Of a DNA stretch of 64,000 bases, positions 25,164 to 51,888 are shown piece after piece. Location: NCBI GenBank assembly GCA_018266755.1, contig JAFDZW010000005.1, positions 775,233 to 839,232 on the forward strand, in the 5' to 3' direction. Each line of letters begins with the position of its first letter. The first letter of the stretch is position 1. Both the position numbers and the translations under genes were made by a program. The notes under the pieces are model-generated. The model ran no database searches. It saw only the letters and a list, made by a program, of their open reading frames with translations, and had not been told where the DNA came from. Source of the DNA: Bacteroidota bacterium (GTDB lineage: Bacteria; Bacteroidota; Ignavibacteria; Palsa-1295).

Positions 25164-25820
25164 TTACTGAACTGGTCCGATATACTTCATCACAGACCCG
25201 AAGTACGTGTCGGGTCGAGTGGAGCTCGAGTAGATCAAGCCGACTCCTCGTGCAAACCATTTCACCGTTGTATCCGACTCCGCAGTAACATATTGTACTT
25301 CGGTGACATCGTCGAATACTTGCCCTGCCGGCATTTTCATTTGTGCGCCTCGACGTGTGACTGTTGCCGTCACTACCTCAGGCGAATAGAAGTTGCCGGT
25401 ATTGAACTGCCATTGTTGGCCTTCGGTGAGCGGGCTCTTCAGATCGAGCCACGTGGCGCCCCCGCTGCCGCAGGAAACACTCCCTACGGTAGCAGCTTCG
25501 CTATCGTTCACTATGAAGTAGAGATCGCTATGAAATTGATCGCGGTTGCTGATCCCAACGGCGTAACAGCGACGATCCGGCGACAGGTCGACTGTTGTTT
25601 GGTCACGTCCGTTCATTGTCATGCGGACCGTATCGGTCCCGATCGAAGTCGCACGACAATACGCGAATGACACACCCACATCAGACAAGGGGAAATAGAA
25701 TTGTGAGACGTTGGTTATCGGTGCCGGATGTTGTGGCGCATCTGCGATCCCGCAGGAGGCGAGTCCCGCGGCGAGCAATACTGATGGCACTCGAAGTGCC
25801 CGGGTGGTGAGTCTCTTCAT
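25164..25820 (-). CDS. lipoprotein of unknown function in the ECF sigma operon
   Basis: 218 residues with a lipoprotein signal (lipobox near LASCG, Cys about 23). The rest looks beta-rich with four further Cys residues and no domain I know. Its start codon overlaps the stop of the upstream anti-sigma-like gene by one base (shared position 25820), so translation is likely coupled. Its place as third gene after an ECF sigma factor and an envelope-spanning protein suggests a sensor or accessory at the outer membrane; this is inference. Confidence 0.75.
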   Translation of the reverse strand: MKRLTTRALRVPSVLLAAGLASCGIADAPQHPAPITNVSQFYFPLSDVGVSFAYCRATSIGTDTVRMTMNGRDQTTVDLSPDRRCYAVGISNRDQFHSDLYFIVNDSEAATVGSVSCGSGGATWLDLKSPLTEGQQWQFNTGNFYSPEVVTATVTRRGAQMKMPAGQVFDDVTEVQYVTAESDTTVKWFARGVGLIYSSSTRPDTYFGSVMKYIGPVQ

Positions 25821-27025
25821 CAGAATCGGTATTGGATACCATAGTGAATACTGCCGTTGAGTGTCGTCCGAATGCCGGTCCCGGAGAAGAGCACGGGTGC
25901 ATTCGCCACGCTCGCGTTCGACAGCACAGCATCGGCACCGCCGATGTTCGAGTGCACGCGCGAGAGGGAAAAGTCAACAGCAAAATCGAAATGCTCAGAA
26001 GCCGGAATGCGAACCCCTGCTTCCGCAGCAACGGTATACCCGTTGGGAATAAAACCAGCCGAGGCGCCGATGAGTGCCGTGACCGGCGTATTGAACAACC
26101 CCGTGAAGTGATGCGCTGCATAGACCTCGCCGCCCCATGCGCGACGAGTCTCTAACGCTTGTTGCAGAACGGTCACCCCAGTTTCTTTCATCGACACGAC
26201 ACTGCCGGGCAATTGATATAATCCGGAGGTCACCCGAACTCCGATCACATTCGATCGCGTAATGAAATATCCGATGCCAAGACGCTGCTCGGCGAATGGC
26301 TTGATCGGCTGTGCGTCGGCCGGTGTCGTAAAGCCGCTGGACGTCTGAAGTGTAGCCTCGAACCGATCACGCTCTTCGCGTCGCTCCCCCTGGCGGAGAG
26401 TGACAAGATCGTGTGCACGTTCCGTCGTGATGCTGCCGACATCGCTCATCGCTGCCAGATTGACAACTGGTATTTGTACAACATCGGGTCCAATCCCCTC
26501 TGAATTCGACCGTGCAGCGATTACTTCGAGCGGTATCGAAGGATCATCCAACTTCTTGGTATGCGTTGGCACACTCTGACTCGGCATTACTGCATCGATC
26601 GATGAGGAAGAAGCTATATTCCGATCGCTGTGAGAATCAACATAGTCTGGGATGCTCGTCGAACCGATCGATGCAGTGTGGAGCGATCCTAGCGACCGAT
26701 CGGTGCCGTTTCGCAGCAAGAGCGACGATGTTACGATCGTACCGATCAGCAGAACAGCGAGTGTAGCGATTCCTACCGTGCGTTTGCGACGGGTAGACGG
26801 GATCGGCGAAGGGGTAGATGAAGCGATGGCCTCGAATGCAGCAGATGTCAGCAGCGGCGCGTGAACACTGTGGACCGAAGTCTTTGCGAGCGAGCGCAGC
26901 ATTCGGTGGTGTTCGAGCAACTCTGTTGCATGTGGCGACCGGCGCACCTCGCGCAAGAGCGCAGCACGAGCGTCAGGCGTAAGCCCGCCATCGAGATACT
27001 CTATGATGCGATCTTCCAAACTCAT
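25820..27025 (-). CDS. anti-sigma-like protein with one membrane helix and C-terminal barrel-like domain
   Basis: 401 residues. Residues 1-75 look like the cytoplasmic part of an anti-sigma factor ('LEDRIIEYLDGGLTPDA' opening, as in many mycofactocin-unrelated HC2-type proteins) but lack the His/Cys zinc motif. One transmembrane helix follows at about 84-105, then a Ser/Thr-rich linker. From about 240 onward a beta-rich domain alternates glycine and aromatic residues and ends in '...YGIQYRF', the terminal Phe typical of outer-membrane barrels. Similar layouts are known next to ECF sigma genes in Bacteroidota. It begins 21 nt after the sigma gene. If the topology is right, one chain spans the whole envelope. 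Confidence 0.75.
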   Translation of the reverse strand: MSLEDRIIEYLDGGLTPDARAALLREVRRSPHATELLEHHRMLRSLAKTSVHSVHAPLLTSAAFEAIASSTPSPIPSTRRKRTVGIATLAVLLIGTIVTSSLLLRNGTDRSLGSLHTASIGSTSIPDYVDSHSDRNIASSSSIDAVMPSQSVPTHTKKLDDPSIPLEVIAARSNSEGIGPDVVQIPVVNLAAMSDVGSITTERAHDLVTLRQGERREERDRFEATLQTSSGFTTPADAQPIKPFAEQRLGIGYFITRSNVIGVRVTSGLYQLPGSVVSMKETGVTVLQQALETRRAWGGEVYAAHHFTGLFNTPVTALIGASAGFIPNGYTVAAEAGVRIPASEHFDFAVDFSLSRVHSNIGGADAVLSNASVANAPVLFSGTGIRTTLNGSIHYGIQYRF

Positions 27026-27046: not shown

Positions 27047-27736
27047 TTATTGTTCGTGTTCTTCTGGGACAGAGGGAATTCGTGAGCCGAGCTCTGCACG
27101 AAAATGCGGAGCCAGCAGCTTACGGAGCATCTTCTTTGCACGATTGATCCGAACTTTGACGTTCGGCACCGATACGCCTGTAAGGTCGGCGATCTCGGCA
27201 TAGGAAAATCCTTCTACTTCCTTCAACAGAAACGCTTCCCGGTAGATCGGCGCAACGCGCTCGAACGCATACTGGAAGATCTGCTGCGGCATTGCCGGAT
27301 CGATCGCCTCGAACGACAACTCCTTCTGCCGATGCAGGATGCCTTCTTCGTCCTCGAAATCGGCATCGAGATAGACGAACTCCGGCGTAAACTTCGATGT
27401 GCGCGTGAGGTTCAGACACACCGACCGCGTAATCTTCATCAGCCACGATTTGATGGCTGCTCCTTCACGGAGTTGTTCGCGGTTTGAATAGATGCGAATG
27501 AGCACTTCCTGCAGTGCATCTTCAGCCGCACGGGTGTCACCCATGATGTAGAGGCAATACGCAAAGAGCGAATCTGCGTAGAATTCGTACACCTCTTTGA
27601 AGGCCTTCACATCCCCTGCAATAAATGCAGAAATGGTCGAAGAATCAAGACTCCGACGCAATGCGGTTCTTGACGCTTCACCACTGGGAGCGGGGCGCTT
27701 CGGTTCGGTCACTGTATGGGGAATAATTACTCTCAT
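27047..27736 (-). CDS. ECF-family RNA polymerase sigma factor
   Basis: 229 residues from the ATG giving MRVIIPHT; the open frame continues 18 codons upstream. Sigma region 2 ('AFKEVYEFYADSLFAYCLYIMGD..AAEDALQEVLIRIY') and region 4 ('APIYREAFLLKEVEGFSYAEIADLTGVSVPNVKVRINRAKKML' as pattern) are clear; region 3 is absent, as expected for ECF factors. About 45 residues before region 2 are Pro/Ser/Arg-rich and unusual. The gene heads an operon with the envelope-spanning anti-sigma-like protein and a lipoprotein. A TGTAAC-N17-GTC element directly upstream suggests autoregulation. Confidence 0.93.
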   Translation of the reverse strand: MRVIIPHTVTEPKRPAPSGEASRTALRRSLDSSTISAFIAGDVKAFKEVYEFYADSLFAYCLYIMGDTRAAEDALQEVLIRIYSNREQLREGAAIKSWLMKITRSVCLNLTRTSKFTPEFVYLDADFEDEEGILHRQKELSFEAIDPAMPQQIFQYAFERVAPIYREAFLLKEVEGFSYAEIADLTGVSVPNVKVRINRAKKMLRKLLAPHFRAELGSRIPSVPEEHEQ

Positions 27737-27740
27737 ATAA

Positions 27741-27769
27741 AAAGACACATTTAAACTAAAAAGGTTACA
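27741..27769 (-). promoter_or_regulatory. ECF-type promoter before the sigma gene
   Basis: On the minus strand TGTAAC (27769-27764), 17 bp, then GTCTTT (27746-27741). ECF promoters typically have an AAC-containing -35 and a GTC-type -10. With this spacing transcription would start near 27736, the annotated ATG, so the message may be leaderless or the true start may lie slightly downstream. The same element precedes each of the four Asp-box paralogues. Confidence 0.6.
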
Positions 27770-31347: not shown

Positions 31348-31371
31348 AGTCAGCCCTTCTCAATGTAAAAG

Positions 31372-31778
31372 TGGAGGTGAGGGGAATTGAACCCCTGTCC
31401 GAAAAGCATGTCCCGGCGCTTCTACGATCGTAGCCTCTTGTTGATTAGTACTCGGCGCCAAAGCAAGAGGCCACCGACATCCAAGTACCGTCGTTCCTGC
31501 GATACTCCCGCAGGCGAACAACGCTCCTGCAGGAGAGACCGAACATGCGACACCCGTGATCAACACCGGTTCGTTCTAAGCGGTGTTGCGGATGGGCACC
31601 CGACTCACATAGTGAGTCTAGCAGCGTCAACGCGTCGCAAGGACGCGGAGCTTAGGCAGCCATTGCATAGCTATAGTCGGCGGTTAAGCCGCGTATGGTC
31701 TTGTTTACGGATGTTCCATACACCACCCGGATCGCGACGCTCGGAGCATCCGCCCCCCGTCGAATCCAATGCACCCCC
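31372..31778 (-). ncRNA. ssrA: transfer-messenger RNA (tmRNA)
   Basis: It rescues stalled ribosomes and tags the unfinished protein. The 5' end reads GGGGGTGCATTGGATTCGAC, the hallmark tmRNA start. The 3' end carries a T-arm with GGGGTTCAATTCCCC and CACCTCC, pairing with GGGGGTG to form the acceptor stem; CCA is not encoded. The tag frame is 31681-31652 on the minus strand: ADYSYAMAA then TAA, preceded by TAACC, which matches the known upstream pattern of a resume codon. The tag is one residue shorter than the Chlorobium tag. The partner smpB gene is at 41.1 kb. Confidence 0.96.
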
Positions 31779-42888: not shown

Positions 42889-45057
42889 TCAATGTATTAC
42901 AGAGACAGTAGTCGTGGCAGCCGCCCCGCCGGACGAAAGTGTGAGCACATACGTTCCGCTTGAGATCGAGCCGAAATTCAGCTCTTCGACGTGTTGGCCT
43001 TCCGTTTGGAGCCCAAGATCGAACATCGCAACCCGTGTGCCACGCATATCATAGAGCTCGACATACGTCGGAGCACTTTGGCTGAGCGTGTACTGCATCC
43101 GGATCCGGTTCACGGCCGGGTTCGGATAGATGCGCTCGATCTGCAACGTTGATACCGTTGCTGCTGTCGGATTCTTCACGTCGGCTTCCTCGTCCGTATC
43201 GATTCGCAAGATCGTCCCCCGGAAACCGCAAGTCCACCCGGCGTGGGTCGTGCCGAAAGTGACACTGAACAAGTCGGCGGTGGTCAGTGCGCGTTGGGGG
43301 TGCCATGAAGAATCGGGATCGACGGTATGGATGATCATCGCACCATGCCCGACGACCGTGGCATGATAGCCGTCGGCCGTATAGATACCGAGCGGTGCAA
43401 GCGTGGAGTATTCGGTAATATCGGTATATTTCCATGTGTCCCCACCGTCACTGGAATATGCAAGCGCACCGTGCCACTGTTGTTGCAGCGGTGGCACTCC
43501 GAGTCCGCCCAAACCGCCAAGATACAAACGCGATCGAGCAGCCCCAATTCCGATTGTCGAGAATACGTAAGTATCCGGGATATTCAGTTTTTTCCAGGAA
43601 ATCCCGGCGTCGCTTGTGCGGAAGACGCCATTAGGAGAAGTGATAAATCCGTATGACGAATCGAAGAACGCAAGACTTGTAATGCCCACCGTGTCCGGCA
43701 GCGGGCCATGATAGCGAGTCCAATATTGGCCGCCGTCGGTTGAACGCAAGAATAGCGCTGAATCGCCAACGGCATACACAGCATTGCGCGAAGCGAAGCT
43801 GACGGCTCGAAGGTGTCGTGTGGTGTTCGATGGGATGCGCGTCCAGGTTGTTCCGGCATCGGTGGTACCGAAGATGGTCCCGAATTCCCCGACAACGAAG
43901 CCGTTGCCGCGGTCATCGAGTGCCGAACCATAAAACGTACTCGTTGTACCGGTTTGAACCGGAAGCCACGTATGTCCGCTATCGACAGTCGTGAGGATGG
44001 CGCCGTAACTTCCGGCCGCAAAACCGCGACGGCCATCGTTCATCATGCGGATGGTTCGAAGTGCACTTGTCTGCGGTCTGCGCGGGATGAATGTCCAGCT
44101 CGTTCCTCCATCGGTCGTCTTGATCACCACACCATCTTGCCCGACCGCAATACCGGAATATTCCGAAAGCATCGAGACGCGCTTGATGGAAGTCATCGAA
44201 CCGAATTCGCTGCGAGACCACGAACTCCCGCTATTGCTCGAGTACAACAGTTCTCCGTGATCGCCAACGGCGATCATCGGACCGTTTCCCTTCTTATCGA
44301 CGCTGTTGAGAGGTTGTGCTCCGAGCGTGAAGTTCATCGAATCCTCAAACTGCCAACTATGTCCCGCGTCATTCGTGCCGAGGATATAGCGTCCCGGTCC
44401 GCCAACTGCGATGGCGTGACGATCGTCGAGATAATAGACATCGTTGATCGTATTGCCGGAGGGCATCCGAAAGGACTCGAACGTCCGGGCGGAGTCGCGG
44501 CTCGCATAGTACATTCCTCCGTCTCCGACGAACACAATAAGTCCCGGCCTCGGCATGCGAAGACGACGGATTGCACCGAACGACAACTCTTGTGGAAATC
44601 TGTTCCATGTCGATCCACCGTCACGGCTGATCAGCAACGTTCCAGCCGCTGAATTTCCGCCGCAGATCAGCGCCAGTTGGTTATCGACCATGAGGACATC
44701 CAGTAACGGGTCCGTCACTCCCGTAGACAACGTGGCCCAGGTTTTTCCGCCATCGGTCGTTTTATACGCTGTTCCATTCGCACCAACGACCATACCGGTC
44801 AGCGTATCGATAAAACTGACGCCATTAAGCGTGAGTGTGCCGACCTGACGGTTCGTCAGCGTCGTTCCTGCGTCGCTCGTCATGGTAACCAACCCTTTGT
44901 CACCGACCATCACGGCTGTCATCTCCGTGATGGCTTGCACCGAACGGTATGTGCCTGCAAGGTTGGAAGGATTCTGCGTGACCCACGTGTTCAGTTGAGC
45001 ACGAGCAGAATGAAACGCGATGCAACATAAGATCACGATGAGTCTGTGTGTCTTCAT
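42889..45057 (-). CDS. tandem Asp-box T9SS protein, paralogue 1
   Basis: 722 residues from the ATG giving MKTHRLIVIL; signal peptide ends near ARAQ. The mature part starts 'NTWVTQNPSNLAGTYRSVQ' like its three paralogues. It consists of repeated blades with 'VGDKG' and Asp-box motifs (e.g. TTDGGKTW, SRDGGSTW, STDGGQYW, SSDGGDTW), about eleven in all, pointing to a Ycf48/sialidase-type beta-propeller. A linker 'CGFRGTILRIDTDE' precedes the T9SS sorting domain ('ERIYPNPAVNRI...SGTYVLTL'). Expected on the cell surface; binding role unknown. Last and probably oldest or most diverged of the array, judged by its variant promoter. Confidence 0.85.
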   Translation of the reverse strand: MKTHRLIVILCCIAFHSARAQLNTWVTQNPSNLAGTYRSVQAITEMTAVMVGDKGLVTMTSDAGTTLTNRQVGTLTLNGVSFIDTLTGMVVGANGTAYKTTDGGKTWATLSTGVTDPLLDVLMVDNQLALICGGNSAAGTLLISRDGGSTWNRFPQELSFGAIRRLRMPRPGLIVFVGDGGMYYASRDSARTFESFRMPSGNTINDVYYLDDRHAIAVGGPGRYILGTNDAGHSWQFEDSMNFTLGAQPLNSVDKKGNGPMIAVGDHGELLYSSNSGSSWSRSEFGSMTSIKRVSMLSEYSGIAVGQDGVVIKTTDGGTSWTFIPRRPQTSALRTIRMMNDGRRGFAAGSYGAILTTVDSGHTWLPVQTGTTSTFYGSALDDRGNGFVVGEFGTIFGTTDAGTTWTRIPSNTTRHLRAVSFASRNAVYAVGDSALFLRSTDGGQYWTRYHGPLPDTVGITSLAFFDSSYGFITSPNGVFRTSDAGISWKKLNIPDTYVFSTIGIGAARSRLYLGGLGGLGVPPLQQQWHGALAYSSDGGDTWKYTDITEYSTLAPLGIYTADGYHATVVGHGAMIIHTVDPDSSWHPQRALTTADLFSVTFGTTHAGWTCGFRGTILRIDTDEEADVKNPTAATVSTLQIERIYPNPAVNRIRMQYTLSQSAPTYVELYDMRGTRVAMFDLGLQTEGQHVEELNFGSISSGTYVLTLSSGGAAATTTVSVIH
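43133..43230. repeat. 98-bp tract identical to one in the next paralogue
   Basis: Every base of 43133-43230 equals 45399-45496, while the flanks differ at many positions. It encodes the end of the propeller, the RIDTDEEADVKNPT linker and the first residues of the sorting domain. Identity at silent sites points to recent gene conversion. Confidence 0.9.
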
Positions 45058-45092: not shown

Positions 45093-45121
45093 GACAACGT
45101 TTGAGGCCCTCTAAAGATACA
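45093..45121 (-). promoter_or_regulatory. ECF-type promoter of paralogue 1
   Basis: TGTATC (45121-45116), 17 bp, GTTGTC (45098-45093), 59-64 bp before the start codon for the -35 part. One base in the first element differs from the other three copies. A GCTGCCGA / TCGGCAAC hairpin at 45128-45150 lies just upstream, after the stop of paralogue 2. Confidence 0.5.
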
Positions 45122-45154
45122 ACCGTCGCTGCCGAAACGCAATCGGCAACGCCT

Positions 45155-47302
45155 CTAACGTGTCACCACGATCTGTGTCGTTGCGGCTGCATTTCCGGCT
45201 TCCACGACAAGAATGTACGTCCCCGTGCTCAACCCTCCGAGATTGAATTCGCATGCATGCTCGCCGTCGGACTGCAGCCCTTGCATTGAGCTCAACACTC
45301 TGGCACCGAGCAGATCGAAAACTTGTATCGTCGTCGGTGCCTGCTGATCGAGGCGATATAATAGATGAATCCGGTTCACCGCAGGGTTCGGATATACACG
45401 CTCGATCTGCAACGTTGATACCGTTGCTGCTGTCGGATTCTTCACGTCGGCTTCCTCGTCCGTATCGATTCGCAAGATCGTCCCCCGGAAACCGCAGCTC
45501 CAGCCGGCATGGGTTGTGCCGTACGCAATTCCGAAGAGGTCGTTGGATGTCGGGGTTGTCTGCGCAGTCCAGGCACTTGTGGGATCGGTCGTATGCAAGA
45601 TCAGTCCGTTTCGTCCGACCATAGTCGCGTGGTATCCGTCTGCAGTATAGATCGCTTGCGGAGGTTTCGGAGAGACGGTCTGCAGTTCGGTGGCGTTCCA
45701 TGTATCCCCGCCGTCGACTGTATAGGCTACTGCCCCGGTATAATTTCCAAAGCCAATCCCAACGGCATAGGCATGGGTCGGCGATGTTCCGACGGCGATA
45801 CTATTGAATGCAAAATCGGTGGTCGGCATGACAAGCCTCCACGAGATGCCTGCATCCGTTGTCTTGAAGATACCGGCCGGTGATGCGATCATTCCCCTCG
45901 ACGAATCGAAGAATGCAATGCCGTTAATACCGAACGAGTCGGGGAGCGGCCCATGATAACGGGTCCAATATTGTCCGCCGTCGGTCGAGCGAAGGAATAG
46001 TGCAGAGTCGCCGCCGATATAGATTGCATTGCGGCTGGCTTGTGTAATACAACGGAAATGCTTCGTCGTAGCCAGGGGGACCTGTTTCCAGCTCGCTCCG
46101 GCATTCGTCGTTGAAAGCATCGTGCCGAATTCACCGACGATAAACCCACGCCCGTCGGTGTCGAGGATGGATGCGAGCAAATTCTGATTCGTGCCGCTTA
46201 CCGTTGGCAGCCAAGTGTGACCGCTGTCCGAGGTTATCAGGATCGCCCCATTCCCGCCGGCAGCGAAACCGGTCTTGCCGTCCGGCATCATCTTTACCGT
46301 GCGGAACGTCTGGATCTCGGGTTTGCGCGGAATGAACTCCCATGTCGCTCCGCCATCCGTTGTTCTCATCAGGACGCCATCCTGCCCGACGACCATTCCG
46401 AGTTTATCGGAATACATCGAGACACCTTTGATCGAACTGAACGAACCGAAGTAGGAGCGATTCCAACTATTTCCCCCGTCGAATGAGTAGAGTATCTCAC
46501 CGTAGTCACCAACGGCTACCACGCTATTCGGGCTCTTGGAATCAACTCGGTTCAGCGCCGTACCACCGAGCGTAAAGTTGTTGCTGTCGAGCAAATGCCA
46601 ATGTACGCCCTGATCGGGAGACCCGATCATATAACGGCTCGGGCTGCCGACGGCCACAATATGTTGGTCGTCGAGGAAGCACAGGTCGTTGATCGTATTT
46701 TGATACGGGATCTGGAATTGCACGAAGGTATGGGCTGTGTCGTGCGATACGTAGAACGCGCCGTTATCACCGACGAAGACGATGAAATCCGGCCGCAGCA
46801 TACGAAGACCGCGGATAAACCCAAAGCCCAACTCGCCGCCATATTGACTCCACGTCTTGCCGCCGTCGCGCGTAATTCGGAGCAGGCCGTTGCTGGATGT
46901 CCCTCCGCAGATAATCGCGGTATTCTGGTCGACCATCAGCACACCGAACAACTGCTGGGTAATACCGATGTTCAACGTTTTCCAGGTTTGTCCGCCGTCG
47001 GTGGTTTTGTATGCCGCACCATTCGAACCGACCGTCATGCCTGTAAGGCTATCGATAAAATTCACGGCATAGAGGTTCTGAGACCCGATCGATTGATTGA
47101 CGATCGTTGCTCCCGCATCCGTCGAACGCGCAACCGTTCCTTTATCGCCAACCATAAACATCGTCGTCGGCGATACCATCTGGATCGCGCGGTAATACCC
47201 GGCAATATTCGACGGGTTTTGTGTGATCCAGGTATTGATCTGCGCGTCGGCAGATGAATAGATACACAGCGATACAATCAACAGAACGAATGAGCGGATC
47301 AT
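45155..47302 (-). CDS. tandem Asp-box T9SS protein, paralogue 2
   Basis: 715 residues; signal peptide MIRSFVLLIVSLCIYSSADA. Same plan as paralogue 1: 'NTWITQNPSN' opening, propeller with about eleven Asp-box motifs (TTDGGQTW, TRDGGKTW, TTDGGATW, STDGGQYW, TVDGGDTW), the shared 'YWTRYHGPLPD' block, the linker and a T9SS domain ('YPNPAVNRIHLLY...STGTYILVV'). The linker DNA is identical to that of paralogue 1 over 98 bp. 97 bp separate it from paralogue 1. Confidence 0.85.
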   Translation of the reverse strand: MIRSFVLLIVSLCIYSSADAQINTWITQNPSNIAGYYRAIQMVSPTTMFMVGDKGTVARSTDAGATIVNQSIGSQNLYAVNFIDSLTGMTVGSNGAAYKTTDGGQTWKTLNIGITQQLFGVLMVDQNTAIICGGTSSNGLLRITRDGGKTWSQYGGELGFGFIRGLRMLRPDFIVFVGDNGAFYVSHDTAHTFVQFQIPYQNTINDLCFLDDQHIVAVGSPSRYMIGSPDQGVHWHLLDSNNFTLGGTALNRVDSKSPNSVVAVGDYGEILYSFDGGNSWNRSYFGSFSSIKGVSMYSDKLGMVVGQDGVLMRTTDGGATWEFIPRKPEIQTFRTVKMMPDGKTGFAAGGNGAILITSDSGHTWLPTVSGTNQNLLASILDTDGRGFIVGEFGTMLSTTNAGASWKQVPLATTKHFRCITQASRNAIYIGGDSALFLRSTDGGQYWTRYHGPLPDSFGINGIAFFDSSRGMIASPAGIFKTTDAGISWRLVMPTTDFAFNSIAVGTSPTHAYAVGIGFGNYTGAVAYTVDGGDTWNATELQTVSPKPPQAIYTADGYHATMVGRNGLILHTTDPTSAWTAQTTPTSNDLFGIAYGTTHAGWSCGFRGTILRIDTDEEADVKNPTAATVSTLQIERVYPNPAVNRIHLLYRLDQQAPTTIQVFDLLGARVLSSMQGLQSDGEHACEFNLGGLSTGTYILVVEAGNAAATTQIVVTR
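45399..45496. repeat. 98-bp tract identical to one in paralogue 1
   Basis: Partner of 43133-43230; see there. The equivalent region of paralogues 3 and 4 is similar to each other (GTATCGATGCGCAAAATCG) but differs from this one, so exchange seems to occur within pairs 1-2 and 3-4. Confidence 0.9.
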
Positions 47303-47337
47303 AGAGCCAAAGAGTTACACACCAAATTCGAACTAAT

Positions 47338-47366
47338 AATAACCATCATTCCCCTAAAAGGTTACA
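47338..47366 (-). promoter_or_regulatory. ECF-type promoter of paralogue 2
   Basis: TGTAAC (47366-47361), 17 bp, GTTATT (47343-47338), with the first element 59-64 bp before the ATG. The stretch TGTAACCTTTTAG nearly equals TGTAACCTTTTTAG before the ECF sigma gene. A second TGTAAC occurs at 47319-47314 but is too close to the start to serve as a -35. Confidence 0.6.
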
Positions 47367-47422
47367 GTACCGTTACGGCTTGAATTCTATATGAGATACG
47401 ACTTTGTATTACCCCGATCGCC

Positions 47423-49579
47423 TCATTTGACAACGACGATCTGTGTGGTTGCGGCAGCGTTGCCAACAGAAAGAAAGAGCAGATACGAGCCGCTGGCAAG
47501 TTCGCCGAGGTTTAATTCGTCGGTATGCTCCCCGTTCGCTCGCATACCGAGCTGCGCGTCCAGCACTCGTACTCCGAGCTGGTCGAACACTTGCACGTTC
47601 GCCTTGCCGGGTTGGTCAAGCTGATACAACAAGCGCACCCGCGATACTGCCGGATTCGGATACACTCGTTCGATCGTGAGATGCGGCATTGCAATGACAT
47701 CGGGATTTCGGACATCCAATCCTTCGTCGGTATCGATGCGCAAAATCGTCCCGCGAATCCCGCAACTCCACCCGGCACGCGTCGAGCCATAGACAATACC
47801 GTACAGATTATTTGTTGTCGGCGCTGATTGCGTAGACCAAGTGACACCGCCATCAACCGAATGATAGATCAATCCATAGTGCCCTACAAAGGTCGCGTGA
47901 ACTCCATCCGGTGTAAAGACATCGGACGGTGGAAACGGACTGCGTTGTAATAATTCTGTACATACCCACGTCTCTCCCCGGTCGGTACTGTAGCCGACAG
48001 CACCGGTGAACTGTCCCCCCGTTGCAAGACCTACACCGATTGCATTCGGCATCATACTACTGGCCGATAATTTCATGAACCCGCACACAATCGGAGAGAG
48101 TACCAAATGCCACGAAATACCTGCATCGGTTGTCTTGAACACACCGAATGGCGAGCACACCAACCCTTGCAGCGAATCAAAGAAGGTCATCCCAGTGATC
48201 GCAAATGAATCCGGCAACGGCCCATGGTAGCGAGTCCAATACGCCCCTCCGTCCGTCGACTTCAGAAACAGTGCCGAGTCACCACCGATATAGAGCGTGT
48301 TCTTGCTTGCCTCGGCGATGCAATGCAATGTCTTCGACGTGGCGAGAGTAACGCGCGACCACGTAACGCCGGCATCGCTAGTCCGCAGCAGCGTGCCGAA
48401 GTCGCCTACGACAAACCCTCGCCCATCCTCATTAAGCACTGCTCCGTTGAGCCCGGTGATGACACCAGTTGCAGAGGGAATCCATGTGTGGCCACTATCG
48501 ACAGTATACAGAATCGTCCCGTAACCTCCGGCGGCGAATCCGCGCTGGCCGTCCGGCATCATCCGGATCGCTCGCAGCGTACGAACTTCCGGCCGACGAG
48601 GGATGAACTCCCACGTCACGCCGCCGTCGGATGTACGCATGATCAGTCCGTCCTGACCAACGGTGATACCATCAAGCGCAGAGTACATCGAAATCGCCTT
48701 CAATCCACCAAGCGATCCGAAGAAGCTTCGTGTCCAGTTCTCACCTCCGTTGGTCGAATAGAGGATCTCACCGTAGTCGCCGACGGTGACCACGTGCGCA
48801 AGATCGTTAGCATCGACACCGTTGAGCTGGGCGGATCCGAGATCGAAGTTCGCACTATCGAGCGCATGCCAATGCGTACCGCCATCGGATGTGCCAAGCA
48901 TATACCGGCCGGGGCTGCCGACAGCCACAATATGCTGCTCGTCGAGGAAACAGACATCATTGAGGTCGTTCTGATATGGCAGAAGATACTTCGTGAACGA
49001 CGCGGCATGGTTTCGCGTAACATAGAGCGACCCGTTCAAACCGACGAGGACAATGAAGTCCGGTCGAAGCATCCGAACCCGTTTGACAATACCGATCCCA
49101 AGTTCGGCAGCAAACAACGTCCACGTCGCTCCTCCATCGCGCGAAATATGAATCGTGCCGCTCTCCGACGTGCCACCGCAGGCGATCGCAAGGCTATCGT
49201 CAACCATCAATACGCTGTGTAGTGGTTCGTTCGATCCGGCACCGATATTCATCGGCAGCCACGTGGCCCCGCCATCGGTGGTCTGAAATGCGACGCCGGC
49301 TTCGCCCACACACATTCCACGGAGCGAATCGAGAAAGCTTACGCCGAGAAGCGACTTGGTCGTGAGCGATTTGCTCAAAAGTGTGTATCCCCCATCGGTG
49401 GAGTACGCGACGGTCCCTACGTCACCGACGGCGAACATGGTCGTCGGTGTCACCATCTGCACCGCGTGATAGACGCCGGCTAAGTTGGAGGGGTTCTGCG
49501 TAACCCACGTATTACGCTGTCCGTGCACGGAGTGCGCAAGACACAGCGATGCGACGAAAATGAGAATTGAGCGAATCAT
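47423..49579 (-). CDS. tandem Asp-box T9SS protein, paralogue 3
   Basis: 718 residues from the ATG giving MIRSILIFVASLCLAHS; the frame continues 23 codons upstream without support. Opening 'NTWVTQNPSNLAGVYHAVQ', about eleven Asp-box motifs (TTDGGATW, SRDGGATW, TSDGGTHW, STNGGENW, SVDGGVTW), 'YWTRYHGPLPD', linker 'CGIRGTILRIDTDE' and T9SS domain ('YPNPAVSRVRLLY...SGSYLLFL'). Closest to paralogue 4 in the opening ('MVTPTTMFAVGDVG') and linker. Confidence 0.85.
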   Translation of the reverse strand: MIRSILIFVASLCLAHSVHGQRNTWVTQNPSNLAGVYHAVQMVTPTTMFAVGDVGTVAYSTDGGYTLLSKSLTTKSLLGVSFLDSLRGMCVGEAGVAFQTTDGGATWLPMNIGAGSNEPLHSVLMVDDSLAIACGGTSESGTIHISRDGGATWTLFAAELGIGIVKRVRMLRPDFIVLVGLNGSLYVTRNHAASFTKYLLPYQNDLNDVCFLDEQHIVAVGSPGRYMLGTSDGGTHWHALDSANFDLGSAQLNGVDANDLAHVVTVGDYGEILYSTNGGENWTRSFFGSLGGLKAISMYSALDGITVGQDGLIMRTSDGGVTWEFIPRRPEVRTLRAIRMMPDGQRGFAAGGYGTILYTVDSGHTWIPSATGVITGLNGAVLNEDGRGFVVGDFGTLLRTSDAGVTWSRVTLATSKTLHCIAEASKNTLYIGGDSALFLKSTDGGAYWTRYHGPLPDSFAITGMTFFDSLQGLVCSPFGVFKTTDAGISWHLVLSPIVCGFMKLSASSMMPNAIGVGLATGGQFTGAVGYSTDRGETWVCTELLQRSPFPPSDVFTPDGVHATFVGHYGLIYHSVDGGVTWSTQSAPTTNNLYGIVYGSTRAGWSCGIRGTILRIDTDEGLDVRNPDVIAMPHLTIERVYPNPAVSRVRLLYQLDQPGKANVQVFDQLGVRVLDAQLGMRANGEHTDELNLGELASGSYLLFLSVGNAAATTQIVVVK

Positions 49580-49613
49580 GGCGCCAATCGATTCGCGAGT
49601 ACGTTGATCGAAT

Positions 49614-49642
49614 AGAGGCATCTTTTTAAGAACAATGTTACA
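49614..49642 (-). promoter_or_regulatory. ECF-type promoter of paralogue 3
   Basis: TGTAAC (49642-49637), 17 bp, GCCTCT (49619-49614); the first element is 58-63 bp before the ATG. Confidence 0.5.
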
Positions 49643-49681
49643 TCGCATCTATCGACCTCGCCACATAATAGACATACACCG

Positions 49682-51823
49682 TCACCGCACCACAACCAAT
49701 TGAGCAGTAGCTAAAGCCGATTCCGTCGTCAACGTGACGACATATGAACCGGCGGGTAATGCACGCACATCGAGTTCGGAACTGTGCTCCCCTTCGGTAA
49801 GGATACCAAGATCTCTTGAGAGAACCCTCTTCCCCTGGATGTCCATGATTGAAATCGTTGCCGAAGAGCTCTCCGGTGTTGAAATCAACAAGCGAATCCG
49901 GTCGGAAGCAGGGTTTGGATAAATACGCTCGATGTCCACGGTTGGCAGTACGACGTGTGTCGGATTGCGCACATCGGCCTGCTCGTCGGTATCGATGCGC
50001 AAAATCGTCCCGCGAATTCCGCAACTCCACCCGGCATGCGTCGAGCCGAAGCCGACACCGAAGAGGCTGTTCGATGTAAGTGTCGTCTGAAGCGACCACA
50101 CTCCATCCGGGCTGCTGACATGCGTGATCTGACCGTAGCGACCAACGGCGGTCGCATGGTAACCATCGGCAGTATAAATTGCATACGCCCGGCTCACGAC
50201 GCTCCCAGAGATCGCTATTCCCCATGTGTCGCCACCATCAGTAGTATGCGCATAAAACGAACCGTCAAACGAGGTACCAAGCGCAAATGCATTTGTCGGT
50301 GAACTACCAATCGCGACTGCAATCCACGCGGCAGGTAATCCGGTAGAAATGACCTGCTTCCAGGTAATTCCTGCATCGTCAGTCTTCCACATTCCGTCGG
50401 GCGAGCCAACAACCCCTCGCAACGAATCGAAAAAATTCAGCGAAGTGACTCCGAACGAATCGGGCAACGGCCCATGATACCGTGTCCAATACTCTCCTCC
50501 ATCTATCGATTTCAAGAACAATGCTGAGTCACCGCCGATATAGAGCGTATTGCGGCTCGCCTCTGCGATGCACGTCAATCGTCTACTTGTACTGAGCTTG
50601 ACCGTAGCCCATGTTGCGCCTGCATCGGTCGTCCGAAGCAGCGTCCCCATTTCGCCGACGATATAGCCCCGACCGTCGGCATTGAGAACTGCCGCGAGCA
50701 GCCCTGCAATAGTACCCGACTCGACCGGATTCCATGTGTGACCGCTATCCCGTGTAAACAAGATCGACCCGTAGCCCCCTGCGGCAAAGCCGGTACTTCC
50801 GTCCGGCATCATTCTCACCGTTCGAAGTGTACGGATCTCCGGTCGGCGCGGAAGGAACTCCCAACTCGCTCCTCCATCGGTCGTTCTCATAATCACTCCA
50901 TCCTGACCGACCACCAACCCACTCGTTGCCGAGTACATCGACACACCTTTGAGCGATGTCAGCGCACCGAAGTCACTTCGATTCCATGTGTCGCCTCCAT
51001 CGCTCGAGTACAAGAGCTCGCCGAAATCGCCGACGGCAACCACTGCATGCGGATCTTTCGAGTCCACCCCATTCAACTGGGCAGCGCCCAATGTGAAGTT
51101 ATTCGTATCGAGCGCCCGCCAATGGGCTCCTTGGTCCGATGAGCCGACCAAATAGCGGCTCGGACCGCCAACAGCAACGACATGCAATTCGTCGAGGAAG
51201 CAGACGTCGTTGAGATCGTTTTGGTATGGCAGTTGATATTGAAGGAAGGTCCGCGCGGAGTCCCGGGAAACGTAGTACGTCCCGTTCGCGCCGACGAAGA
51301 CGATAAAATCCGGGCGAAGCATTCGGATGTTTTTGATCGCGCCAACGCCTAACTCGCCTGAATACGGTTTCCAGGTAGCTCCTCCGTCGCGAGTGATGCG
51401 AAGGCTGCTAAAACTGCTCGCCCCGCCGCACACTAATGCCAAGTTGTGATCGACCATCAAGACCCCATAGAGCTGTTCGCTCCCGCCGATGTTCATTGGC
51501 AGCCACGTATTCCCCCCGTCGGTCGTCTTGAATGCATTGCCTTCTTCGCCGACGACCATCCCGGTGAGCGAGTCGGCGAAATTTACTCCGTAGAACGACT
51601 TTCGCATGATCGACCTGTTCTCCAGCGTTACCCCGCCATCTAACGATCGGGCGATGATCCCGACGTCACCGACGGCGAACATCGTCGTCGGCGTCACCAT
51701 TTGCACCGCACGATAGACTCCCGCAAGATTCGGAGGGTTCTGTGTGACCCAGGTATTGAGTTGGGCGTGCGCGACATGCGCTGCCACCAGCAGGATGAAG
51801 GATAGAATGAGTGTGTGTCTCAC
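49682..51823 (-). CDS. tandem Asp-box T9SS protein, paralogue 4
   Basis: 713 residues from a GTG start; signal peptide MRHTLILSFILLVAAHVAHA. 'NTWVTQNPPNLAGVYRAVQ', about eleven Asp-box motifs (TTDGGNTW, TRDGGATW, SSDGGDTW, TTDGGASW, TTDGGDTW), 'YWTRYHGPLPD', linker 'CGIRGTILRIDTDE' and T9SS domain ('YPNPASDRIRLLI...AGSYVVTL'). It is the first gene of the array in transcription order; 102 bp separate it from paralogue 3. Confidence 0.85.
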   Translation of the reverse strand: MRHTLILSFILLVAAHVAHAQLNTWVTQNPPNLAGVYRAVQMVTPTTMFAVGDVGIIARSLDGGVTLENRSIMRKSFYGVNFADSLTGMVVGEEGNAFKTTDGGNTWLPMNIGGSEQLYGVLMVDHNLALVCGGASSFSSLRITRDGGATWKPYSGELGVGAIKNIRMLRPDFIVFVGANGTYYVSRDSARTFLQYQLPYQNDLNDVCFLDELHVVAVGGPSRYLVGSSDQGAHWRALDTNNFTLGAAQLNGVDSKDPHAVVAVGDFGELLYSSDGGDTWNRSDFGALTSLKGVSMYSATSGLVVGQDGVIMRTTDGGASWEFLPRRPEIRTLRTVRMMPDGSTGFAAGGYGSILFTRDSGHTWNPVESGTIAGLLAAVLNADGRGYIVGEMGTLLRTTDAGATWATVKLSTSRRLTCIAEASRNTLYIGGDSALFLKSIDGGEYWTRYHGPLPDSFGVTSLNFFDSLRGVVGSPDGMWKTDDAGITWKQVISTGLPAAWIAVAIGSSPTNAFALGTSFDGSFYAHTTDGGDTWGIAISGSVVSRAYAIYTADGYHATAVGRYGQITHVSSPDGVWSLQTTLTSNSLFGVGFGSTHAGWSCGIRGTILRIDTDEQADVRNPTHVVLPTVDIERIYPNPASDRIRLLISTPESSSATISIMDIQGKRVLSRDLGILTEGEHSSELDVRALPAGSYVVTLTTESALATAQLVVVR

Positions 51824-51859
51824 GGCACTATTGAACAGGGGAACAGTATTCCTTAGAGA

Positions 51860-51888
51860 AGAAACTCTCGAGGGGGTGAAAAGTTACA
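51860..51888 (-). promoter_or_regulatory. ECF-type promoter of paralogue 4
   Basis: TGTAAC (51888-51883), 17 bp, GTTTCT (51865-51860); first element 60-65 bp before the GTG. The remaining gap to 52044 serves the divergent nfeD-like gene and shows no other structure. Confidence 0.55.

Follow-up and report, generated by a model that had tools for sequence, protein, structure and literature searches.

A shared ECF-type promoter upstream of sister sigma factor operons and genes for exported proteins in a bacterium of the class Ignavibacteria

RESULTS AND DISCUSSION

A promoter-like element, TGTA(A/T)C-N17-G(T/C)(T/C), recurs upstream of four tandem genes for secreted proteins and of an ECF sigma factor gene in a 64,000 nucleotide stretch of a Bacteroidota genome (contig JAFDZW010000005.1, positions 775,233 to 839,232; hereafter the window). 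To judge from its sequence and distribution the element is real and marks genes for exported surface proteins that envelope-sensing sigma factors probably switch on. The explanation that fits best, and that as a whole we consider rather likely, is that it serves at least four sister ECF sigma factors (A, B, C and D), which form a bank and each of which would transcribe its own operon from the shared promoter type, with a variant of the −10 box telling them apart. Dozens of exported proteins, many of them with type IX secretion tails and including the YCF48/BNR paralogues of the window, would be expressed from the same promoter type. The paralogue cluster would most likely be driven mainly by ECF-D, encoded on contig C6, and not mainly by ECF-A, the factor encoded in the window, though B or C may cross-recognise it to some extent. 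The motif, its position, spacing and conservation, the −10 classes, the operon layout and the predicted fold are all features of the sequences themselves.

The tandem paralogues and their promoter-like elements

Paralogues 1 to 4 lie on the minus strand at 42889–45057, 45155–47302, 47423–49579 and 49682–51823 respectively, and Pfam places them in the YCF48/BNR family, paralogue 1 being a secreted YCF48/BNR-repeat protein with a type IX secretion sorting tail (PF14870 and PF18962). All four have the features of type IX secretion cargo, with PF18962 matches above the cut-off and hydrophobic N-termini. Paralogue 1 begins with the ATG at 45057 and paralogue 4 with a GTG; for paralogue 3 the ATG at 49579 was chosen over a start at 49648, since the latter would place the motif within the gene.

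The original prediction named five sites in the window, and all five match at the coordinates and with the pattern that it gave. The elements of the paralogues (P1 to P4) are all on the minus strand and read TGTATC-N17-GTT (P1, 45096–45121), TGTAAC-N17-GTT (P2, 47341–47366), TGTAAC-N17-GCC (P3, 49617–49642) and TGTAAC-N17-GTT (P4, 51863–51888), the higher coordinate being the first base of the hexamer in each case. With their extensions P2 and P4 read TGTAACCTT-N14-GTT and TGTAACTTT-N14-GTT. The ECF-A site, TGTAAC-N17-GTC at 27744–27769 on the same strand, is in full TTGTAAC-CTTTTTAGTTTAAAT-GTGTC, that is TTGTAAC-N15-GTGTC. The weak spots of the set are the hexamer of P1, TGTATC and not TGTAAC, and the atypical second box of P3, whose GCC triplet was found once upstream of signal-peptide genes in the sample described below. 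Counted from the start codons with which the products have signal peptides (45057, 47302, 49579 and 51823), the hexamer starts 63–65 nt upstream and the 3′ end of the second box lies 37–39 nt upstream, so that the fixed position proposed earlier stands, with a range tighter than the 58–65 bp then given.

It is hardly credible that these likenesses are due to chance, or only to tandem copying. The loose pattern is indeed common genome-wide, but pairwise comparison of the four upstream regions outside the motif gives around 25% identity, with a range of 16–34% over 80 nt, which is about chance, and since these flanks are unalignable the shared position of the site is not a mere remnant of duplication. 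Conservation of the site in two other lineages and the genome-wide enrichment of TGTAAC-N17-GTY also tell against this explanation. The spacer of P1 is 65–71% identical to those in the promoters of homologues in a sister species (G001), with about 20% identity in the upstream flanks.

Distribution of the element in the genome

The distribution was analysed by pattern counts over the whole 3.55 Mb genome and by statistics over 1.59 Mb of stretches, some of them picked for their ECF genes or their richness in cargo genes; genes and signal peptides were called by crude scripts. Throughout the genome the loose pattern TGTAWC-N16-18-GYY is not enriched, with 528 matches as against 639 for a backward control, and the pattern was therefore sharpened to GTY with a YTT extension. 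TGTAACYTT-N14-GTY occurs 16 times as against 2 for the backward control, P2, P4 and the ECF-A site being among the 16, and TGTAACYTTTT-N8-12-GTC occurs 4 times and not at all in the control. Within the 1.59 Mb sample, TGTAAC-N17-GTY is found upstream of 13 of 411 signal-peptide genes as against 5 of 854 others, and several of the non-exported genes that bear it are the ECF sigma genes themselves. When 120 permuted hexamers were placed before signal-peptide genes in the same way the mean count was 0.49 and the maximum 3, compared with 13 for TGTAAC; the count peaks at a spacing of 17 only (13, as against 0–5 at other spacings). Enrichment is thus a property of TGTAAC-N17-GTY before signal-peptide genes and not of the loose pattern. 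The signal is one of position, of TGTAAC with GTY at exactly 17 nt, and of conservation in relatives, and not of the bare pattern.

The genome contains 150 matches to PF18962, the type IX secretion tail, and 31 matches to sigma region 4. Genes with type IX tails bear TGTAAC-N17-GTY upstream in 7 of 80 cases, compared with 16 of 1185 other ORFs (1.59 Mb sample, p=3e-4), although with only about 9% of these cargo genes carrying it the site is no general cargo promoter. Bases outside the pattern by which the sites were picked are also conserved, namely TT after TGTAAC and T after GTY. The ECF promoters have clear A/T tracts before the hexamer, at distances of about 15, 26 and 36 nt; at the sites of secreted genes weaker tracts lie at about 15 and 26 nt.

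Promoters of the primary sigma factor of Bacteroidota have a TAnnTTTG −7 box, which TATCTTTA and TAACCTTTTTA resemble, and the hexamer could in principle be such a box misread as a −35 element. This is very improbable: TTTG lies about 20 nt upstream of the TA in 2 of 43 ECF promoters as against 1.24 in shuffles, on which ground the reading was rejected, and there is a second conserved box 17 nt downstream with a sharp peak in spacing.

Conservation in relatives

The ECF-A gene (27047–27736, minus strand, ATG at 27736) encodes a sigma factor of 229 aa with regions 2 and 4 both above the Pfam cut-off (Sigma70_r2, PF04542; Sigma70_r4_2, PF08281). Its promoter is kept in all 11 of the family genomes with an orthologue that were examined, with a spacing of 17 in the genus of the window and 18 in other family members, the −10 box being unchanged. 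The same promoter lies upstream of ECF-B, ECF-C and ECF-D orthologues, so that it precedes four ECF genes in the genome of the window (G000) and nearly all of their orthologues across 13 related genomes. The earlier reading of the ECF-A site as an autoregulated, ECF-type promoter is upheld by this conservation alone, and promoters of the type are found before genes for secreted proteins genome-wide. ECF promoters in general have an AAC −35 core, a GTC-like −10 box and autoregulation, and the AAC core, the GTY box and apparent autoregulation are common to the present ones; what would set these apart from the general type is a bank of sister sigma factors with private −10 codes, together with a regulon of secreted proteins. 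The ECF-A start codon is 7 nt past the GTC of its promoter (27736–27744) and those of ECF-C orthologues are 8–13 nt past their box, and with such short gaps the mRNAs of these sigma factors may have little or no leader. More distant ECF genes elsewhere in the class (at L051, L054, L055, L058, L059 and L064–L067) follow looser sites, with TGTAACYTT and then a box resembling GTT or GTC, which suggest that the promoter type is old.

Homologues of the paralogues keep the element as well. The sister species G001 has three in tandem, each with TGTAAC-N17-GTT, and in a sister genus two have NCAAC-N17-GTT 33–34 nt before the ATG; no convincing site was found upstream of two divergent homologues in that genus (L087 and L088). 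Several other exported genes, named and paired by eye from sequence, have it in G000 and G001 alike, these being genes for a thioredoxin-like lipoprotein, an M16-like peptidase, a TWQYTG protein and a BNR-type protein.

The −10 classes and the candidate sigma factors

Each group of ECF orthologues has a −10 sequence of its own: GTGTC for A, (G/T)GGTC or GTGTC for B, GTGTT for C and GCGTT for D. Promoters were assigned to these classes with a two-block position weight matrix that allowed for the spacing of 18 found for class A in family orthologues. In leave-one-out trials 42 of 42 ECF promoters were placed in the right group, a result that, the orthologues being related to each other, measures consistency within groups. 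For the paralogue promoters, with all p-values uncorrected, P1 fits D only (19.4 bits, p=0.009), P4 fits D (p=0.004), then C and then B, and P2 fits B marginally (p=0.045); P3 and the third G001 homologue fit none of the classes A–D. G001 homologues b and c fit D (p<0.001), and the G001 ECF-D promoter, TGTAACTTTGGGGGTCCTCAAGCGTT, is closely matched by homologue promoters TGTAACTTCGGGGGTTCTCAAGCGTT and TGTAACTGATGAGGGTCTCAAGCGTT, which are near copies of it through the spacer.

The original prediction was of a sigma regulon joining the ECF operon of the window to the paralogues, and on this reading ECF-A would drive four genes that are 15–24 kb away. The two sets of sites do have the same −35 hexamer and 17 nt spacing, three of the four paralogue elements have GTY, and the spacer begins with CTTTT at both the ECF-A site and P2. 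The resemblance of TGTAACCTTTTTAG to TGTAACCTTTTAG that had been taken to link ECF-A with P2 is, however, common to the ECF-B promoter too and hence does not discriminate. The GTGTC box that is invariant in 11 ECF-A orthologues is present in none of the four paralogue promoters, none of which fits class A significantly (p=0.21–0.93) and three of which (P1, P2 and P4) are fitted better by other classes. Control by ECF-A is thus unlikely, and with P1, P4 and two G001 homologues falling in class D it is the weaker candidate for the cluster. A regulon served by an ECF-type promoter survives from the original prediction, but its assignment of the paralogues to the sigma factor of the window is probably wrong, and the sister module of ECF-D, encoded on a contig other than that of the window, fits better. 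That assignment, like sigma binding and the nature of the signal, is something that we infer.

The cluster is not uniformly of class D, since P3 and one G001 homologue are classless and P2 is only marginally of class B. A serious contender, though one that we think has somewhat less than an even chance, is that the paralogue promoters are recognised by several sister ECFs (B, C and D, perhaps with others) whose targets overlap, with a different mix for each gene. The TGTAWC hexamer common to all, the B fit of P2, the order D, C, B for P4 and the D-only fit of P1 are consistent with this, but in G001 the two strongest homologue promoters nearly duplicate that of ECF-D, which argues against it. 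The genome has 31 sigma-region-4 matches, and ECFs that do not use this promoter for themselves could also read the sites. One such factor has a claim by location: in G001 (L185:4288-5999) a different ECF gene, together with its anti-sigma-like gene, is the divergent neighbour of the tandem homologues. Its orthologue in G000 (C2:254332) is not adjacent to the paralogue cluster, and no TGTAAC-N17-GTY promoter is found upstream of this ECF in either genome, so that it too is an improbable regulator, slightly more so than ECF-A.

The predicted sensing module

ECF-D, to which the cluster is here provisionally assigned, and ECF-A have operons of three genes. In the ECF-A operon the sigma gene is followed by genes for a protein of 401 aa (25820–27025, minus strand), the anti-sigma candidate, and a lipoprotein-like protein of 218 aa (25164–25820, minus strand); in that of ECF-D it is followed by genes for a protein of 470 aa, whose two ends are of a similar type, and an equivalent lipoprotein. 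A tmRNA gene lies further along the window, at 31369–31778 on the minus strand. The 401 aa protein has no Pfam match, and the FecR domain of FecI/FecR signalling was not found in it by Pfam; a zf-HC2 match occurs in only one of the ten members examined (E=0.047). An AlphaFold2 model built with ten orthologues has a helical N-terminal domain (good confidence), a hydrophobic helix at 83–106 that probably spans the membrane (pLDDT below 50), a disordered tether to about residue 218 (pLDDT below 50) and an eight-strand barrel that runs to the C-terminus (good confidence). In Foldseek searches the barrel matches OmpA, Ail, NspA and OmpX in the PDB with modest scores. This predicted layout of helical domain, helix, tether and barrel agrees with the envelope-sensing look that the original prediction saw in the ECF operon. 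The predicted anti-sigma factors of A and D would thus stretch from the cytoplasm across the inner membrane, with a disordered tether joining them to an outer-membrane barrel, and a change in the outer membrane would free the sigma factor and raise the expression of its own operon and of a set of surface proteins.

Relation to known systems and significance

The closest parallel is in Bacteroides thetaiotaomicron, where the ECF21 sigma factors Das1 and Das2 have dual-membrane-spanning anti-sigma factors, Dma1 and Dma2 (PMC13088901). As is predicted for the ECF-A module, the ECF gene is followed by that for an anti-sigma factor with an anti-sigma N-terminus, one membrane helix, a long disordered tether and a C-terminal beta-barrel, and Dma2, like the ECF-A and ECF-D modules, belongs to a three-gene operon (PMC13088901). 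The lineage is a different one, and the Das/Dma outputs are vesicle production and polysaccharide loci, whereas the output predicted here is secreted surface proteins (PMC13088901). The PorY–PorX–SigP system of Porphyromonas gingivalis also ties an ECF sigma factor to type IX secretion, but SigP controls the secretion machinery and takes its input from a two-component system (PMC4800418), whereas cargo and other exported proteins are the predicted targets here; TGTAAC-N17-GTY does not match the SigP-type motif C(T)AAA... (PMC4800418), and the genes described here do not fall in a PorXY–SigP regulon by that test. In the part of the B. thetaiotaomicron study that we consulted, the non-canonical ECF-linked promoters of SigW-1 and SigH-1 have a −10 box with TGTT, like the GTGTT of class C, but no TGTAAC-like −35 element is given there, and the SigW-1 motif is described as not significant (PMC12596196).

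As far as the literature searched shows, little is established about how type IX cargo is controlled, apart from work on the secretion machinery itself in one pathogen. In the present case the promoter code, its target genes and the matching sigma/anti-sigma modules can all be read from sequence, the predicted sensors would reach the outer membrane directly, and the recently described Dma design would be extended to another lineage. It is conceivable, though doubtful as yet, that the surface proteome of this lineage is run by a bank of sister modules of ECF and dual-membrane-spanning anti-sigma factor, alike in their −35 element and set apart by a −10 code, with the state of the outer membrane as sensed by each barrel choosing the exported proteins. 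What makes these bacteria change their surface is now a question that can be put to the test.
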